Assembly (NCBI GenBank): GCA_023266635.1
Contig: JAHFPU010000004.1
Coordinates: 1 to 38,682, forward strand
From: Sphingobium sp.
Lineage (GTDB): Bacteria > Pseudomonadota > Alphaproteobacteria > Sphingomonadales > Sphingomonadaceae
DNA length: 38,682 nt
Reading direction: 5' to 3'
Below the pieces are notes generated by a model, which saw only the letters and a program-made list of their open reading frames with translations, did not search any database and was not told where the DNA came from. Position 1 is the stretch's first letter, and each line of letters starts with the position of its first letter. This document shows, one piece after another, positions 17,507-38,091 of the stretch. Position numbers and translations under genes: made by a program.

Positions 17507-18727
17507 ATGGAATTGAACGCATTCTCGGTTGATCGGGTCAACGAGACCATGGAATATGAGCGCTCGCGCAAGGCGCCCCCCGAAAACTTCCCGTCGATGC
17601 CCGATATTCCGGGCGCGCGCTATGTCGACAAGGACTTCCTGGCGCTCGAGCGTGAGCGCATGTGGGGCCGCGCCTGGCTCTATGCCGGCCATGTCGATCA
17701 GTTGCCGAACAAGGGAAGCTGGTTCCTCTCCCGCAACACCGGCTCGCCCATTTTGGTGGTGCGGGACATGCAAGGCGACGTGCGCGCCTTCTACAACACC
17801 TGCCAACATCGCGGCGCGCCATTGGTCACCGAAAACGCCGGAGAGTCGCGCGGCTTCGTGTGCGGCTATCATGGCTGGAGCTACACGCTGGACGGCAAGC
17901 TGACCGCCGTCCGCGACAAGCGCGATTTCGTCGATCTCGATTTCTCCTGCCGCTCGCTGGTGTCGGTGCGCTGCGAATTGCTGGGCAGCCTCATCTTCCT
18001 GAACGAGGACCCGGACGCCCAGCCGCTGATGGAACATCTGGGGCCGATGGCGAAGGAGCTTGAGCAATATAAGCTCGAGGACCTGCGTCTCGTCGATTCA
18101 CGCCGCTACGATGTTGGCTGCAACGTGAAAATCCTGCTCGACGCGTTCCTTGAGGTCTATCACATCAAGTCGATCCACCAGCATACGGTGGATCGCTTCC
18201 TCGACCATCGGGGCATGATCGTCACGCTCTGGCCGCAGGGACACAGCCGCATGCTGACGCCCAACAGCCGGCCCGACTGGAAAGATCCGGGCACGTTGGG
18301 CATGCCGAAGATCCCGACGATCACGGAAGTGCCGGCCAATAACAATGTGAGCTATCACATCTATCCGAATTTCGTGATGCCCGCGTCCGACAGCGGCATT
18401 CCGCTGCTGCAGTTCTGGCCGACGTCGGACACGACCTGCCAGGTGGTGTCGAGCTGGATCGCGCCAGACTATGATCCTGACGTGCCAAGCGCGCTGTGGG
18501 ATACGCGCCTCTCCAACTGGGAGCGCATCCTGTACGAGGATCTCCAGTTCGCGCCGCAGATCCAGGAATCGCTTGAGAGCAAGGGCTTCCGGGGCATGCC
18601 GCTCAACTATCAGGAGCGCCGCATCTATCACTGGCATGAAGAACTAGATCGCCGGATCGGCCTCAACCAGGTGCCGCCCGAGGCACGGGTCGAACAGGTG
18701 CTGCACGATCAGGTCGTGCACGCCTGA
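17507..18727 (+). CDS. Rieske non-heme iron oxygenase, alpha subunit
   Basis: Rieske motif CQHRGAPLVTENAGESRGFVCGYH (CxH-x17-CxxH); mononuclear iron site DAFLEVYHIKSIH. Confidence 0.94.
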   Translation: MELNAFSVDRVNETMEYERSRKAPPENFPSMPDIPGARYVDKDFLALERERMWGRAWLYAGHVDQLPNKGSWFLSRNTGSPILVVRDMQGDVRAFYNTCQHRGAPLVTENAGESRGFVCGYHGWSYTLDGKLTAVRDKRDFVDLDFSCRSLVSVRCELLGSLIFLNEDPDAQPLMEHLGPMAKELEQYKLEDLRLVDSRRYDVGCNVKILLDAFLEVYHIKSIHQHTVDRFLDHRGMIVTLWPQGHSRMLTPNSRPDWKDPGTLGMPKIPTITEVPANNNVSYHIYPNFVMPASDSGIPLLQFWPTSDTTCQVVSSWIAPDYDPDVPSALWDTRLSNWERILYEDLQFAPQIQESLESKGFRGMPLNYQERRIYHWHEELDRRIGLNQVPPEARVEQVLHDQVVHA

Positions 18728-25493: not shown

Positions 25494-26825
25494 TCAGATG
25501 TCGCCGGGGGCCTTCTTCCCGGGGCCGTAGACAAAATCGTCGATCACCTTGTGGAAATGCCGGATGCGCAATTCCTGGTCACCGATCCAAAGCCCTTTGA
25601 AGGAATCTGAATGCATGCCCTTCTGCACGGTCGGCAGATTGAAGGCATCCTGATCAAGCACCTGGCCGATGCTGCGGTCGCCATGCTTGAAATGCCTGTG
25701 CTTCGGACGATCGGGCCATTCTTCGCCTTCGGGCACCAGCTCGAACATCCAGATGTCGTAGAACATCTTGTTGGGATTGGTCGGATGCGGCCGCTGACGG
25801 AACATCATGATGTCGTCGGCATGGACGTTCATCGAGACGTTCGGGAAGATCGAATAGTGATAATCGTCGGTCAGCTGATCGTCGTTGAGCGCCGAATAGT
25901 CCTTGCCCTGCGCCTTACCATGCTTGCGCTTGAATAGTTGCACATCACGGCGGATGTCGCTGACACGGCCTTCATATTCGGCCGGGTCCATGCCCGCCTT
26001 GACCATGATGTCGTAAATGGCCGGCGGAATGGCTGAGGGCAACGCCACACGCGCGCTGATCGTCGCGAAGGGCACCAAATAGCGGCTATGCCGCTCATAC
26101 ACATCGACCTGCGCATTGGTGTCGTCCAGATACCATTGCAGCTGCGGGTGGATGCCCTGCACATGATAGACTTCGCTAAAGGCATCGACACTCGCCTTCC
26201 AGTTGCAGTCCCATTCAACTGTAACGTCGCGCGTCCACGCCATCCGGTCCATATTATACGGACCCAGATGCTCCTGCATTGGCGAGAGAAAGTCAGCGAG
26301 CGAGCCTACGTCCGGATTGAGCGAGAACCAGACGAAGCTGCCCCATTCCTCGCACGGATAGCTGGCCAATGCCGCGCCCGGCGGGCAGCCCTGCGGGAAG
26401 GTGTCGAGGTCGGGAATGCGCGTGATCGCGCCCTGCAAGTCGTAGGTCCAGTGATGATACATGCACTGGAAATTCTCGGCATTTCCAAGACCTTCAGGAC
26501 GCAGCTTATTGCCGCGATGCAAGCAGACGTTCGGGAACGCGCGGACCGAGCCATCCAGTTGCCGAACGATCAGCACGGATTCCTTGCCGATTTCCGTGCA
26601 GATATAGTCGCCCGGTTCCTTGATGTCGTCGGACCGGCCGCCAAGGAGCCAGACCTTCGACCAGATCTTGTCCCATTCCAGCTTCATGAACGCTTCGCCA
26701 TAATAGCGTTCAGCCGGAATGATGTCATAGCCCAGGTCCGGGTCCTCCTCCTTCTGGACGGGAGTTCCATGTGGCCAGTCCTGTGGATTGACCCGGATGA
26801 TGTCGACCTTGCGTTTTACGTCCAT
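25494..26825 (-). CDS. Rieske non-heme iron oxygenase, alpha subunit
   Basis: CLHRGNKLRPEGLGNAENFQCMYHHW (CxH-x17-CxxH); CNWKASVDAFSEVYHVQGIHPQL. Confidence 0.94.
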   Translation of the reverse strand: MDVKRKVDIIRVNPQDWPHGTPVQKEEDPDLGYDIIPAERYYGEAFMKLEWDKIWSKVWLLGGRSDDIKEPGDYICTEIGKESVLIVRQLDGSVRAFPNVCLHRGNKLRPEGLGNAENFQCMYHHWTYDLQGAITRIPDLDTFPQGCPPGAALASYPCEEWGSFVWFSLNPDVGSLADFLSPMQEHLGPYNMDRMAWTRDVTVEWDCNWKASVDAFSEVYHVQGIHPQLQWYLDDTNAQVDVYERHSRYLVPFATISARVALPSAIPPAIYDIMVKAGMDPAEYEGRVSDIRRDVQLFKRKHGKAQGKDYSALNDDQLTDDYHYSIFPNVSMNVHADDIMMFRQRPHPTNPNKMFYDIWMFELVPEGEEWPDRPKHRHFKHGDRSIGQVLDQDAFNLPTVQKGMHSDSFKGLWIGDQELRIRHFHKVIDDFVYGPGKKAPGDI

Positions 26826-28573: not shown

Positions 28574-29242
28574 ATGGCTCTTGCCTCGGGGCGTTCAGCC
28601 TCTGCCCCGCGCAGTGCGAAAGCAGCGTCGGCAAACGGGCCGACTCAGCAATCGCTCAAAAGCGCCCAGACAAGAGCCCGCCTAATCGATGCAACGATTC
28701 GTTGCATAGTAAAATTTGGCTATGCGAATACTACAACGCCGCAAGTTGCAGCAGAGGCGGGTCTATCACGCGGCGCTATGCTCCATCACTTCGAAAATGG
28801 ATCGGCGCTGATCAAGGCAACCGTTGTCGAGTTGCACGAAAAGCGCCTTCGGGCGTTCCGGCGCGCGGCAGAGATCACCGAGCACGAACCGGCCACCATG
28901 GTGAACACTTATTGGCGCCAGCTGCAAAAGCCCGCCTTCGTCGCCTTCCACGAACTGGCGCTTGCCGCGCGCACCAATGCGGACCTGGCGCGCATCCTTC
29001 AGCCGTTGCAGCTTGAGTTCCGACAGAAGTTCAATTCGCAAGCGGTCCTGCTCTTCCCGGAATGGCAGGACGATCCCGTCAGTTTCGAATTGGCCATGAC
29101 GCTGTCGCAGACGATGATCGAAGGCATGGCGATTAACCTGCTGACCAGCGCTATCGATGAAAGCATGGTGGCTCCCATGCTGCATTTGCTCGAACAGCAG
29201 ATCAGGCTGATGAAACCATCGGCTCGGGATCAGTCCCGGTGA
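28574..29242 (+). CDS. TetR family transcriptional regulator (TetR2)
   Basis: TRARLIDATIRCIVKFGYANTTTPQVAAEAGLSRGAMLHHFENGSALIKATV (HTH). Confidence 0.93.
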   Translation: MALASGRSASAPRSAKAASANGPTQQSLKSAQTRARLIDATIRCIVKFGYANTTTPQVAAEAGLSRGAMLHHFENGSALIKATVVELHEKRLRAFRRAAEITEHEPATMVNTYWRQLQKPAFVAFHELALAARTNADLARILQPLQLEFRQKFNSQAVLLFPEWQDDPVSFELAMTLSQTMIEGMAINLLTSAIDESMVAPMLHLLEQQIRLMKPSARDQSR

Positions 29243-29961
29243 GTTACGCCCCAGCGAATGCCGCGTCGCAACAGTTCGTAGAATATGGGGTAGTTCCACG
29301 CGCAGCGCTGCGGGTGCGGCCAGAAATCGGCGACGGGGCGCAAGTCATAATGTCCCCGGCAATGGCCAAGCGTCAAATAGAGAATGCTGCCCTTTCCGAC
29401 CTTGCGCTCGTACAATACGGGCATCTCCGGCGCGTCCCACTCCGCCTCGCGGAATTCGTCGCAGCGCCCGGTAAAGCTGGTGTGCATCAGCACGTCGATC
29501 TCACCGGTGCGATGGGTAAGGTACAGTTCGTCCTCGACACGAAAATCACGCAGGCCCGTTGTCATCTCATGATCGCTGCGGGTCACGAAAACCTTGTACG
29601 GCGCAATTGGTGGGTGGCCCGCAAAGCGCGTGCCGAGCAGGCCGGTGAATTCCGGAGCCGCGTCCGGCGTATCGACGATGCCGTCATCGCCAAACCGCAA
29701 AATCGCATTGGTGCCATGCAGGGCGAGCCAACGACCACCCTGTTCCAGCCAACCCTTTAGGACTTCGGTCTGCGGCGGGGTCGGGATGAGATCACAGGTG
29801 TAAGTTATCAACAAATCGGCCGCCGCGATGCTGCCGGTATCGGCATAGTCCGAGGAGACGGAGGTACGGATTTCAGGATGTTCACTCAGCAATTTGAGCA
29901 GTTCGAGCCGCGCGAAATCGATGTCGTGGAACTTGCCTGCCGCAACCAGATGCGTCTTCAT
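29230..29961 (-). CDS. ThuA-like domain protein (second copy)
   Basis: MKTHLVAAGKFHDIDFARLELLKLLSEHPEIRTSVSSDYAD...LKGWLEQGGRWLALHGTNAILRF...HPPIAPYKVFVTRSDHEMTTGLRDFRVEDELYL...GSILYLTLGHCRGHYD. Confidence 0.85.
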   Translation of the reverse strand: MKTHLVAAGKFHDIDFARLELLKLLSEHPEIRTSVSSDYADTGSIAAADLLITYTCDLIPTPPQTEVLKGWLEQGGRWLALHGTNAILRFGDDGIVDTPDAAPEFTGLLGTRFAGHPPIAPYKVFVTRSDHEMTTGLRDFRVEDELYLTHRTGEIDVLMHTSFTGRCDEFREAEWDAPEMPVLYERKVGKGSILYLTLGHCRGHYDLRPVADFWPHPQRCAWNYPIFYELLRRGIRWGVTHRD

Positions 29962-30035
29962 GATCATCCCTCTCTCGCATGTGTACGCGCGAGGGTAAGC
30001 GGGCGCTTTGCTTTGGCAAGTGGGGAGCATAGCGC

Positions 30036-31250
30036 ATGAGCGGTCGGGGACAAGGTCCGCTGGCGGGCGTGCGGGTGCTCGATCTGACGAGCGTTCTTAT
30101 GGGTCCTTATGCGACCCAGATCTTTGCCGATCTCGGCGCGGACGTCATCAAGGTGGAAAGCCCGGATGGCGACACGACACGCTATCTGCCGCCTGGCAAC
30201 GACCCGGCGCGGGGCGGCATGTTCATGAACGTCAACCGGGGCAAGCGCAGCATCGTCCTGGACCTCAAGCAGCCTGCAGCGCGCGAGGCCTTGCTGAAAC
30301 TGGCAGAAACCGCCGACGTGTTCATCCATTCGATGCGCGCGCAGGCCATCGGGCGGCTGGGGCTCGACTATCCGGCGCTGCAGGCGGCCAATCCGCGCAT
30401 TCTCTACGCCAATCTTTACGGTTTCGCGCGATCTGGCCCCTATCGCGACTATCCGGCCTATGACGATATTGTGCAGGCGGCATCGGGAATCGTCGATCTG
30501 CAGGCCCGCCTGTCAAAGGGCGAGCCGACCTATCTGGCCACGGTCGTCGCGGACAAGGTCGCGGGTCTTACCGGCGCCTATGCGGTGATGGCGGCGCTCT
30601 ACGCTCGCGAACGCACCGGCCTTGGTCAGGAGATCGAGGTTCCGATGTTCGAGACCCTCGTTTCCTTCGCCACGGTGGAGCATTTGTGCGGATCCCTGTT
30701 CGTGCCCCCGCTCGGGCCGCCGGAATATCCGCGCGCCACATCAGAGGCGCGGCGTCCCTACAAGACGGCGGACGGCTATATCGGCGTCATGATCTACAAC
30801 GACAAGCATTGGCGGTCCTTCTTCCACGCGATCGACGATCCGGAATGGTCGAAGGACCCGATGTTCGCCTCCATGCGCACACGCACTCAGAATATCGGGA
30901 CAGTGCTCGCCAAAGTGGCAGAGGTCATGGAACAACGGACCACCGATGAATGGATGGTCCTGCTGCGAGATGCGCAGATTCCCGCAATGGCGATCGCCAG
31001 TCTGACCGACCTGCTGCATGACCCGCATCTGGTGGAAACGGGATTCTGGCAGGAGCGCGAAACCGACGAAGGTACGCTGCGCTTCCCCGGCATTCCCACG
31101 AGCTTTTCGGCCACGCCCGGCGCGATCGGAGAGCCAGGGCCTGCGCTGGGCGCAGACAGCCGCGCTATCCTCGACGAAGCAGGTTTCGATAGCGATGCGA
31201 TCGACGCCCTTATCGGCAGCGGCGCGGTACGGCTGGCCGAACCGGCCTGA
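30036..31250 (+). CDS. CoA transferase, CaiB/BaiF (family III)
   Basis: LAGVRVLDLTSVLMGPYATQIFADLGADVIKVESPDGDTTR, NRGKRSIVLDLKQP, YDDIVQAASG. Confidence 0.95.
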   Translation: MSGRGQGPLAGVRVLDLTSVLMGPYATQIFADLGADVIKVESPDGDTTRYLPPGNDPARGGMFMNVNRGKRSIVLDLKQPAAREALLKLAETADVFIHSMRAQAIGRLGLDYPALQAANPRILYANLYGFARSGPYRDYPAYDDIVQAASGIVDLQARLSKGEPTYLATVVADKVAGLTGAYAVMAALYARERTGLGQEIEVPMFETLVSFATVEHLCGSLFVPPLGPPEYPRATSEARRPYKTADGYIGVMIYNDKHWRSFFHAIDDPEWSKDPMFASMRTRTQNIGTVLAKVAEVMEQRTTDEWMVLLRDAQIPAMAIASLTDLLHDPHLVETGFWQERETDEGTLRFPGIPTSFSATPGAIGEPGPALGADSRAILDEAGFDSDAIDALIGSGAVRLAEPA

Positions 31251-31261
31251 AGGAGAGCGCA

Positions 31262-31642
31262 ATGGATGGAGTGACGGGCGGGCCGGAAGCGCAATGGCGC
31301 GCGGCCCTAGCGGACGGCAAATTCCTGCTGCAGCGGGCGGTGTCCAGCGGGACGGTATTCTTTCCCCCGCGCGTTATGGAGCCGGGCACGGGCGACACGG
31401 ATCTGGAATGGATTGAGGCGACGGGCCTTGGCATCATCTACTCCCTGACATGGGTGTCACAGAAGCCCCCTGCCCCGCCCTATAATGTGGCGGTCGTCCG
31501 TCTCGACGAGGGCGCACAATTGATGAGCAGGGTCGAAGGCGTCACGCCGGAAACCCTCCGCATCGGTCAGCGCGTCCGCGCAAAGATCGCGACGCAGGAT
31601 GATGGTGCCGCCATACTTCTTTTCGAACCGGCGGGTCACTGA
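31262..31642 (+). CDS. DUF35 OB-fold domain protein
   Basis: 126 aa immediately upstream of a thiolase; FLLQRAVSSGTVFFPPRVMEPGTGDTDLEWIEATGLGIIYSLTWV...YNVAVVRLDEGAQLMSRVEG. Confidence 0.85.
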   Translation: MDGVTGGPEAQWRAALADGKFLLQRAVSSGTVFFPPRVMEPGTGDTDLEWIEATGLGIIYSLTWVSQKPPAPPYNVAVVRLDEGAQLMSRVEGVTPETLRIGQRVRAKIATQDDGAAILLFEPAGH

Positions 31643-31643
31643 C

Positions 31644-32795
31644 ATGGGCGGAAGCTTTCCCCGCGGTAAATGCGCTATCGCCGGCCTCGCGACCTTTGGC
31701 GTCGGCGAAGCGCCGGGCTTTACGTCGATGGAATTGACCGCGCGCGCCGCCTCGCTCGCCGTGGAGGAGGCCGGCCTGCGCATCGACGCCATCGACGCAC
31801 TGTTCATCTGCCAGCCCGACGATTTCTTCGCCGGCCTGAGCTTTGCCGAATATCTCGGCCTCAGCCCGCGTTTTACGGACAATAATCGCACTGGCGGATC
31901 GGCGTTCATGAGCCACATGATCACTGCGATCATGATGCTGGAGGCCGGCTATATCGATACCGCCCTGATCGCCTACGGATCGAACCAGCGCACCAATGGC
32001 GGGAAGCTGGCAACGTCGATCAAGACCAACGCCTGGGATGCGCCCTACAAGCCGTTATTCCCTTTGTCCTCCTATGCGCTGGCTGCCGCGCGCCACATGC
32101 ATGAGTTCGGTACGACGCGGGAACAACTGGCGGAGGTCGCCGTCGCTGCGCGCCAATGGGCCAACACGAATCCTGAAGCCTTCGCCAAGGGGCCACTCAG
32201 CATTGAGGACTGCCTTGCCTCGCGGATCATCAGTTCGCCTATCTCCGTGCGAGACTGCTGCCTTGTGACCGACGGGGCGGCCGCCATTGTCCTGACCCGG
32301 ACGGATCGCGCGCGCGACATGCCCAAGACCCCGGTTCCGGTTCTGGGCGCGGCGGCGGCGACATGGTGGAATTCGATCGCGCAGGCGACGGACATGACCA
32401 CCACGGCCGCGGCGGAATCCGGCCCTCGCGCCTACAATGCAGCGTGTGTGGGTCCGTCCGATATTCAGAGCGTCCAGCTTTATGACGCGTTCACGATCAA
32501 CACGATCCTCTTCCTTGAGGATCTGGGTTTCTGCCCGAAAGGCGAAGGCGGCCGGTTCGTCTCCGGCGGGACCATTGCGCCGGGTGGATCGCTGCCCGTC
32601 AATACCAATGGTGGCGGCCTGTCCTATTGCCACCCCGGCATGTACGGACTGTTCGCGATCATAGAGGCGGCGCGGCAAATCCGGGGCGAGGCGGCAAACC
32701 AGCAAGGTACGGTGGATGTCGCCCTTGCCCATGGCAATGGTGGCACCCTCTCCAGTCAGGCGACCGTTATCCTGGGGAGCACCGCTACTCTGTGA
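31644..32795 (+). CDS. SCP2-type thiolase-fold protein (Ltp2-like candidate)
   Basis: GKCAIAGLATFGVGEAPGFTSMELTARAASLAVEEAGLRIDAIDALF, VQLYDAFTINTILFLEDLGFCPKGEGG, LPVNTNGGGLSYCHPGMYG. ATG 31644 follows the DUF35 stop by 1 nt. Confidence 0.9.
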   Translation: MGGSFPRGKCAIAGLATFGVGEAPGFTSMELTARAASLAVEEAGLRIDAIDALFICQPDDFFAGLSFAEYLGLSPRFTDNNRTGGSAFMSHMITAIMMLEAGYIDTALIAYGSNQRTNGGKLATSIKTNAWDAPYKPLFPLSSYALAAARHMHEFGTTREQLAEVAVAARQWANTNPEAFAKGPLSIEDCLASRIISSPISVRDCCLVTDGAAAIVLTRTDRARDMPKTPVPVLGAAAATWWNSIAQATDMTTTAAAESGPRAYNAACVGPSDIQSVQLYDAFTINTILFLEDLGFCPKGEGGRFVSGGTIAPGGSLPVNTNGGGLSYCHPGMYGLFAIIEAARQIRGEAANQQGTVDVALAHGNGGTLSSQATVILGSTATL

Positions 32796-36763: not shown

Positions 36764-37318
36764 ATGAGCACATTGGAAGACCGTATCGCGCTGCTGGAAG
36801 CGGAATCCCAGATCCGGCAACTTGTTGCCCGCTATTGCTTCTATCTCGACGACCGGCTGATCGAGGAGGCGTACACGCTGTTCACCGATGATGCCGTTCT
36901 AAAATCGGCCGACGGCGTGATGAACGCCACTGGCGTCGAAGCGATCATCCAGCAATTCCACGGCCGTTTCGACGTCCTCGGACCAGGCCATCATTTCATG
37001 CACGACATCCAGATCGATTTCGTGGGCGACGGCAAGCAAGAAGCGCGGGGCCGCGTCATCGGTCATGCGGAATTGTGGCGCAAGGGCAAGATGATGGTGA
37101 CGGCCATCCGCTATGACGATGTCTATCGCAACACGGACAAGGGATGGCGCTTCGCGGAGCGGACAATCAACTTCCTCTATTATGTGCCGGTGTCCGAATA
37201 TCCGGATATTCTGCTCACCGCCAATCGCAACCACGCCTATGATGAGCCGAAGCCGGCCGACTTTCCCGAACGCCTGCCCAGTTGGATCGCCTATGAGAAG
37301 TCCCGAGGCCGCGCGTGA
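36764..37318 (+). CDS. SnoaL/NTF2-like domain protein
   Basis: LEAESQIRQLVARYCFYLDDRLIEEAYTLFTDDAVLKSADG...GHHFMHDIQIDF...RNTDKGWRFAERTINFLYYVP. Confidence 0.85.
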   Translation: MSTLEDRIALLEAESQIRQLVARYCFYLDDRLIEEAYTLFTDDAVLKSADGVMNATGVEAIIQQFHGRFDVLGPGHHFMHDIQIDFVGDGKQEARGRVIGHAELWRKGKMMVTAIRYDDVYRNTDKGWRFAERTINFLYYVPVSEYPDILLTANRNHAYDEPKPADFPERLPSWIAYEKSRGRA

Positions 37319-38091
37319 GCGGCCTCATCGTCGAGCGGCACGGTCCGGTCTTGCTGCTCGTCATCGATCGCGAGGCGCGCCGCAATGCCATCGATTCCGT
37401 TACGTCGGCGGCGATCGACAGCCATATCGGGCTGGCCGAAGAGAATGACAGCATAGGCGCGATCATCATCACCGGGGCGGGCGACCGCGCTTTCTGTTCG
37501 GGCATGGACATGAAGGAAGCCGCAGAAATCGGCGTAGGCCATGGCCTGATACCCGGCAGAGGCTTTGCCGGCATCACCGAGCGCAAACGGACGAAACCAC
37601 TGATTGCAGCCGTCAATGGCGTCGCCGTAGCCGGCGGGTTCGAGATTGCGCTGGCCTGCGACATTGTCATCGCCGCCGACCACGCCATGTTCGGTCTCAG
37701 CGAAGTGAAGCGGGGTCTGTTTGCCTTTGCGGGCGGCGTCCAGCGGCTCGCAAGGCAGGTGCCGCGATCAACCGCGCTGTCCCTCATCCTGACCGGAGAG
37801 CCTGTGTCCGCTGTCCGGATGTACGGGCTGGGCGTTGTCAGCGAAGTGGTGCCCGCCGCGCAACTGCGCCAGCGGGCGTTGGATGTCGCGAGCGTCATGC
37901 TGCAGAATAGCTGGGAGGCCATCCGCAACGGCAAGCTACTTTATGAAATGGCCGCCGACATGACCCTGGACCATAGCCTGCGTTTCGGCAGGGCCTATGG
38001 CGAGGCCACGCTGCAGTCAGCCGATAGCCGTGAGGGCGTCGCCGCCTTCAGCGAAGGGCGCGATGCGAGCTTCGGCCAATTGCAGAGCTAG
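37315..38091 (+). CDS. Enoyl-CoA hydratase/isomerase (crotonase) family protein
   Basis: GAIIITGAGDRAFCSGMDMKEA, PLIAAVNGVAVAGGFEIALACDIVIAADHAMFGLSEVKRGL; GTG start overlapping the upstream TGA. Confidence 0.93.
   Translation: MSGLIVERHGPVLLLVIDREARRNAIDSVTSAAIDSHIGLAEENDSIGAIIITGAGDRAFCSGMDMKEAAEIGVGHGLIPGRGFAGITERKRTKPLIAAVNGVAVAGGFEIALACDIVIAADHAMFGLSEVKRGLFAFAGGVQRLARQVPRSTALSLILTGEPVSAVRMYGLGVVSEVVPAAQLRQRALDVASVMLQNSWEAIRNGKLLYEMAADMTLDHSLRFGRAYGEATLQSADSREGVAAFSEGRDASFGQLQS

Follow-up and report, generated by a model that had tools for sequence, protein, structure and literature searches.

A DUF35/thiolase-fold protein pair from Sphingobium sp. predicted to act as an acyl-CoA retro-aldolase with a Tyr/His active site

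The window analysed here, a 38,682-nucleotide stretch of Sphingobium sp. DNA (contig JAHFPU010000004.1), carries adjoining genes for a DUF35 protein and an SCP2-thiolase-fold protein (Table 1). The pair is a member of the superclade of DUF35-associated thiolase-fold aldolases and falls in a branch for which no characterised member was found; it combines a Tyr/His site with a zinc-free DUF35 protein. We consider it probable that the two proteins act as a DUF35-bound acyl-CoA C-C lyase (retro-aldolase) that uses a Tyr/His pair and is encoded in a catabolic operon, the activity itself being a prediction. An earlier note on this DNA had proposed a retro-aldolase rather than a thiolase, and this is supported by the loss of the nucleophilic cysteine across the branch, an invariant base tyrosine, the phylogenetic tree (100/100) and the models of both subunits. 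We see roughly even chances for a broader proposal, namely that the pair represents a third way in which thiolase-fold retro-aldolases achieve catalysis, by a Tyr/His site with a zinc-free DUF35, two key replacements away from a BbsB-like thiolase, widespread in proteobacterial catabolic clusters and listed in databases under the name thiolase.

Table 1. Features of the window discussed in the text. Residues of the thiolase-fold protein are counted from position 31599.
Feature	Coordinates	Strand	Evidence and remarks
Rieske oxygenase alpha subunit	25494..26825	-	PF00848/PF00355; conserved neighbour in sphingomonads, Paracoccus, Maritimibacter/Hoeflea
ThuA-domain protein	29230..30030		Repeated module neighbour in sphingomonads, Paracoccus versutus
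CoA-transferase family III (CaiB/BaiF)	30036..31250	+	PF02515, 376.7 bits; ~12 bases upstream of the DUF35 gene
DUF35 / ChsH2 C-terminal OB-fold protein	31262..31642	+	126 aa, stand-alone; PF01796
SCP2-thiolase-fold protein, candidate retro-aldolase	31644..32795	+	383 aa (398 aa from 31599); NF004811, PDB, AF2, tree
DNNRTGGSAF loop	31878..31907	+	Gly100 (of TGG) at the thiolase nucleophile Cys position, = CtSal Gly89; alignments, PMC12329534
LYDAFT motif	32478..32495	+	Tyr295 = TcLtp2 Tyr294 / CtSal Tyr302 (catalytic base); alignments, PMC12329534
LYDAFT motif, same span	32478..32495	+	Ala297 = TcLtp2 His296 / CtSal Cys304
LSYCHPG motif	32619..32639	+	His345 = thiolase GHP His = TcLtp2 Tyr344 = CtSal Gln352; Tyr343 variable
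HGNGG motif	32730..32744	+	His378, mostly kept in the NF004811 branch
Enoyl-CoA hydratase family protein	37315..38091	+	PF00378, 169 bits; possible source of 3-hydroxyacyl-CoA

Gene pair and genomic neighbourhood

The DUF35/SCP2-thiolase pairing named in the earlier note was borne out by two forward-strand open reading frames (31262-31642 and 31599-32795) and their profile matches. The DUF35 protein scored 61.6 bits against PF01796 (curated cut-off 27.1), placing it in the OB-fold domain family. The thiolase-fold protein scored 209 bits against PF22691 and 620 bits against NF004811/PRK06158 (cut-off 421), with residues 19-398 covering positions 4-384 of the 384-position model, and is thus a member of a family whose proteins carry the database names thiolase and acetyl-CoA acetyltransferase. 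As most relatives align from residue 16, the ATG at 31644, one base beyond the DUF35 stop codon, is a likelier start than 31599. The thiolase-fold gene is accessory in its genus: matches at E <= 1e-60 were found in 16 of 61 genomes, the window's own included, and only one other genome among the 16 exceeded 65% identity.

The CoA-transferase gene does adjoin the pair, as the earlier note had stated, and the three genes are likely to belong to the same operon; we infer that the transferase makes the CoA ester substrate. All 23 sphingomonad loci longer than 10 kb contain the CoA-transferase gene, and 19 of them contain the Rieske gene. The surrounding block encodes 2-oxoacid dehydrogenase E1/E2, Rieske alpha, SDR, TetR, ThuA, CoA-transferase, DUF35, thiolase-fold, SDR, VOC, SnoaL and enoyl-CoA hydratase (ECH) proteins. 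Its synteny extends to Sphingobium sp. RAC03 and, in part, to Croceicoccus marinus, and the block recurs in other sphingomonad loci. RAC03 holds a 78% relative, and Sphingobium phenoxybenzoativorans SC_3 one at 89%. In Paracoccus versutus the Rieske-SDR / CoA-transferase-DUF35-thiolase layout is the same, with a MaoC hydratase adjoining the Rieske gene. Elsewhere in the window, positions 2496-25448 hold a catabolic block with two AMP-binding CoA ligases, an FMN enoate-reductase-like protein, an acyl-CoA thioesterase, a 2-oxoacid dehydrogenase E1/E2 set and a TonB receptor, and a second single Rieske alpha gene lies at 17507-18727.

Loci of other branches place the thiolase-fold gene near hydratases of the MaoC and ECH types, acyl-CoA dehydrogenases and CoA-transferases; MaoC, for instance, was found in all 18 Roseobacter loci and in 15 of 24 other alpha- and betaproteobacterial loci. 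These neighbourhoods fit an enzyme acting on 3-hydroxyacyl-CoA. In the window itself no MaoC gene stands beside the pair, the nearest hydratase being the enoyl-CoA hydratase some 4.5 kb away.

Active site of the thiolase-fold protein

Conservation was assessed in 29 relatives, the other members drawn when 299 genomes from across the phylum were searched with an HMM. A larger set of 80 named relatives was rejected as proof of an invariant YDAF motif, since many of its members had been found with the search pattern YDAFTINT and the set was thereby selected for YDAF.

SCP2-type thiolases carry a nucleophilic cysteine at the start of helix alpha-3, a second acid/base cysteine in the HDCF motif and a histidine in GHP. 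The window protein has Gly100 in place of the first, YDAF with Ala297 in place of the second, and retains only the histidine (His345, in CHPG). The earlier note had read DNNRTGGSAF as lacking the cysteine; the alignment that could have contradicted it gave glycine at this position, as in all 29 relatives. The tyrosine of QLYDAFT, which the same note had pointed out as retained, aligns as Tyr295 with the base tyrosine of TcLtp2 (YDHF) and CtSal and is likewise tyrosine in 29 of 29.

The note's further suggestion of reliance on tyrosines, as in Ltp2, holds for Tyr295 only. The tyrosine of GGGLSYCHPG is present as Tyr343, but alignments to TcLtp2 and CtSal place it two residues before the catalytic-acid position, where TcLtp2 Tyr344 aligns with His345, so the second catalytic position is a histidine. 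Position 343 is also variable (Cys 9, Tyr 7, Asn 6, Phe 4, Trp 1, Ser 1, Glu 1), whereas position 345 is His in 26 relatives, Gln in two and Tyr in one; the three that depart from His comprise two Sal-type proteins and one of Ltp2 type, so that every other member has His. Position 297 is Ala in 19, Ser in seven, Cys in two and His in one. That Ala occupies the site of TcLtp2 His296 and of the essential CtSal Cys304 had been overlooked in the earlier note, as had the lack of all four zinc-ribbon cysteines in the DUF35 protein. His378 is kept in 20 of the 29 and in 10 of 12 family members. From these counts, Tyr295 and His345 emerge as the conserved catalytic candidates, with His378 as a possible third.

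Catalysis in TcLtp2 is attributed to Tyr294 as base, His296, and Tyr344 as acid, and in CtSal to Tyr302 as base and Cys304 as acid, with Gly89 at the nucleophile position and Gln352 replacing Tyr344; changing Cys304 to Ala abolishes CtSal activity (PMC12329534). The window protein therefore shares the base tyrosine with both enzymes, and has neither the His296/Tyr344 combination of Ltp2 nor the complete Tyr/Cys dyad of Sal.

Phylogenetic placement and structure models

In a maximum-likelihood tree of 52 rows, the 47 that lack the cysteine and bear the tyrosine (the window protein, Sal, Ltp2, IpfD, 4u4e and their kin) formed a single clade (100/100, stem length 1.6) that excludes the Cys-bearing thiolases. 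The window protein thus belongs with the Sal/Ltp2 superclade, within which it sits in the NF004811/PRK06158 branch together with PDB entry 4u4e (98/94), apart from both Sal and Ltp2. Among the Cys-bearing thiolases, BbsB lies nearest (98/96).

This topology weighs against a true thiolase that employs some other cysteine, a reading that would agree with the database names of the relatives and could draw on the conserved DCC and GFC motifs elsewhere in the protein. Those motifs occur in the aldolase TcLtp2 too, and with the invariant glycine at the nucleophile position and Ala at the SCP2-thiolase HDC cysteine, we judge thiolase activity to be extremely unlikely.

The likeness to Ltp2 and IpfD drawn in the earlier note stands as far as the shared Cys-less clade; the window protein is no Ltp2, and its orthology to IpfD is not clear-cut. 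Direct Ltp2 orthology was ruled out by motif (Ala297, His345) and by the separate branch with 4u4e. With IpfD the protein shares YDAF but has His345 for the IpfD tyrosine, and although IpfD groups weakly with Ltp2 in the best tree (92/89), its placement inside the window protein's branch is not rejected by the data (AU test, p = 0.435). This result, the loss of all zinc-ribbon cysteines in the partners of both proteins, the common YDAF and the conserved neighbouring Rieske alpha gene would all suit a close functional equivalent of IpfDE, one that would strip acyl-CoA from an aryl-acyl-CoA whose ring the neighbouring oxygenase has dihydroxylated. Such an equivalence seems distinctly doubtful, given the tyrosine of IpfD at the His345 position, an identity of only ~36%, the grouping with Ltp2, and a Rieske gene that has no adjacent beta subunit and whose best NCBIfam model, scoring below its cut-off, is a single-type glycine betaine monooxygenase.

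Our literature and database search found no characterised member of the NF004811/PRK06158 and 4u4e branch, nor any assay or solved complex for it. No functional study of NF004811/PRK06158 or of 4u4e was found, and no mention of PRK06158 was found in the literature searched; on DUF35, retro-aldol and thiolase enzymes the literature retrieved dealt mainly with Sal, Ltp2, Shy, Phl and archaeal Trf. An idea based on abietane ditF led nowhere.

Structure prediction against Ltp2-ChsH2 had been proposed as a check; with the chains modelled singly, both resemble the subunits of the Ltp2-DUF35 and Sal-DUF35 complexes above those of any thiolase complex. The AlphaFold2 model of the thiolase-fold protein (pLDDT 94.1, pTM 0.94) matched, in Foldseek order, 4u4e, 6ok1 (TcLtp2-ChsH2) and 9myr (Sal-Shy) ahead of every thiolase, and the PDB matches by sequence came in the order 4u4e (E 1e-95), 6ok1 TcLtp2 and 9myr CtSal. 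For the DUF35 model (pLDDT 94), the best Foldseek matches were the DUF35 chains of 6ok1 (ChsH2) and 9myr (Shy), and the best PDB sequence match was 6ok1_B, the Ltp2 partner. By analogy with these partners, the two window proteins would be expected to form a complex.

Proposed reaction

In the mechanism that we propose, a CoA ester, probably supplied by the adjacent family III CoA-transferase, would receive a beta-hydroxyl from a hydratase or the Rieske oxygenase. Tyr295 would take the proton of this hydroxyl, and cleavage between Calpha and Cbeta would release an aldehyde or ketone and leave an acyl-CoA enolate, which may be stabilised by His345 (the GHP histidine of thiolases), the Gly382 backbone and perhaps His378, then protonated by His345 (or His378). 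No acyl-enzyme would form, because the nucleophile position is occupied by Gly100, and the DUF35 protein would complete the substrate pocket without a zinc ion. The reaction and the roles of His345, His378 and Gly382 are deduced from the residues and from the relatives.

Because the Cys304Ala variant of CtSal is inactive and the window protein has Ala naturally at this position, its proton donor must differ from that of CtSal; His345 was chosen since it is ionisable, conserved and aligned with the acid of Ltp2. An Ala at position 297 is compatible with function, since IpfD, whose insertion mutant is unable to use ibuprofen, carries YDAF and lacks the nucleophile cysteine as well. On the best reading, the proposed Tyr/His site is distinct from both the Tyr/Tyr site of Ltp2 and the Tyr/Cys site of Sal.

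The thiolase oxyanion-hole histidine, retained here unlike in Ltp2 and Sal, could also serve a hydrolytic or other non-thiolytic retro-Claisen enzyme, in which water (or an aryl leaving group), activated by Tyr295 and His345, acts on a 3-ketoacyl-CoA to give an acid and an acyl-CoA; the several SDRs flanking the pair, possible 3-hydroxyacyl dehydrogenases, would also suit it. We think this unlikely, as every characterised Cys-less relative in the clade is a retro-aldolase (PMC12329534; tree), the biochemically proven cases being CtSal and TcLtp2, and TbSLP, alone among the relatives in being decarboxylase-like, is very slow (PMC12329534). A biosynthetic role in C-C bond formation (aldol or Claisen-type condensation), like that of the PhlBC acylase, appears very unlikely: PhlABC has the same fold and DUF35 arrangement and PhlC likewise uses a tyrosine and a histidine (Tyr298 and His347; PMC6392133), but PhlC needs Cys88, which the window protein lacks, and the surrounding genes are catabolic (acyl-CoA dehydrogenases, CoA-transferase, Rieske oxygenases, 2-oxoacid dehydrogenase, TonB receptor). 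Retro-aldol cleavage remains our preferred reading.

Zinc-free DUF35 partner

At the four positions of the ChsH2 zinc-ligand cysteines the window DUF35 has A, S, E and T, so that the CxxC...CxxC ligands of a zinc ribbon are missing; the ribbon segment is still modelled with confidence. Homologous DUF35 proteins have been described as four-Cys, with the C3H1 zinc finger of Shy as the exception (PMC12329534). In the DUF35 genes beside relatives the cysteine state is all-or-none: 55 of 98 lack every one of these cysteines, 39 carry the full set and four are intermediate. IpfE also lacks all four. The stand-alone protein of the window does not share the Sal-type architecture either, in which DUF35 is fused to a MaoC hydratase and has the C3H1 finger (Shy).

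The arrangement of the partner gene varies. In eight loci of Pseudomonas, Caulobacteraceae, Verrucomicrobia and Nevskia (L031-L035, L037, L041 and L055; 64-69% identical), no recognisable DUF35 gene was found beside the thiolase-fold gene; in L031, ECH-like and MaoC-like reading frames adjoin it. The missing neighbour in the Pseudomonas-type relatives weighs against the proposed DUF35-bound enzyme. In four Erythrobacteraceae/Sphingomonadaceae loci (L022, L026, L028 and L030) the DUF35 gene is on the strand opposite to the thiolase-fold gene, and in L022 and L028 it lies between a forward-strand CoA-transferase and a forward-strand thiolase-fold gene, as though it had been turned round inside the operon. 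The only other DUF35 pair of the window's genome (G000), on contig C87 (L002), is a different, odd thiolase-like type with a cysteine (GCATGG), QDTES in place of YDAF/HDAF and CGEP in place of GHP.

Significance

NF004811/PRK06158 proteins occur commonly in sphingomonads, roseobacters, pseudomonads and burkholderias. Relatives carry the labels thiolase or acetyl-CoA acetyltransferase, yet neither of the two thiolase cysteines is left. If these relatives are acyl-CoA lyases, pathway predictions for many plasmid-borne catabolic clusters would be corrected. A Tyr/His site, if true, would show a route from thiolase to aldolase with only two key active-site changes relative to BbsB, and the zinc-free DUF35 partners offer a way to test the purpose of the zinc ribbon.

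Comparison with known systems

The closest structure, the Sphaerobacter thermophilus 'putative thiolase' 4u4e, is 44% identical in structural alignment and has the same Tyr/His and no cysteine, differing in YDSF for the YDAF of the window protein. The NF004811 name, acetyl-CoA acetyltransferase, implies a thiolase activity for which the residues give no support.

The steroid side-chain aldolase Ltp2-ChsH2(DUF35) (6ok1) shares the fold, the DUF35 partner, the base tyrosine and the absence of the nucleophile cysteine, but in the window protein His296 is replaced by Ala297 and the acid Tyr344 by His345, and the two lie on separate branches; the window DUF35, moreover, has no zinc ligands and is not fused to a MaoC-type domain. 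The bile-acid aldolase Sal-Shy (9myr) is alike in fold, DUF35 partner, base tyrosine (Tyr302) and Gly89 at the cysteine position, and the oxyanion-hole backbone Gly391 of Sal corresponds to Gly382. Here the differences are Ala297 for the essential Cys304, His345 for Gln352, and a free DUF35 without zinc ligands where Shy is C3H1.

IpfD/IpfE of ibuprofen catabolism (pIBU218) resemble the window pair in YDAF, the missing nucleophile cysteine and the zinc-less DUF35, and their operon likewise combines CoA activation with a Rieske oxygenase. IpfD is nevertheless only ~36% identical, with Tyr for His345, and the ipf operon has a CoA ligase and a two-subunit dioxygenase where the window has a CoA-transferase and a single alpha subunit. 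Plasmid pIBU218 also holds a second DUF35/thiolase-fold pair (L091:938-4556) of true Ltp2 type (YDHF, GEAY), which adjoins an ECH and a CaiB CoA-transferase gene about 9-12 kb from ipfDE.

The benzoylsuccinyl-CoA thiolase BbsA/BbsB (7pxp) is also a DUF35 pair and shares DAF, the GHP histidine and the histidine at 378. In BbsB the nucleophile cysteine (QSACSAG) and the histidine of HDAF are present, where the window protein has glycine and tyrosine; among the key active-site residues only these two differ, and the order of the changes is inferred.
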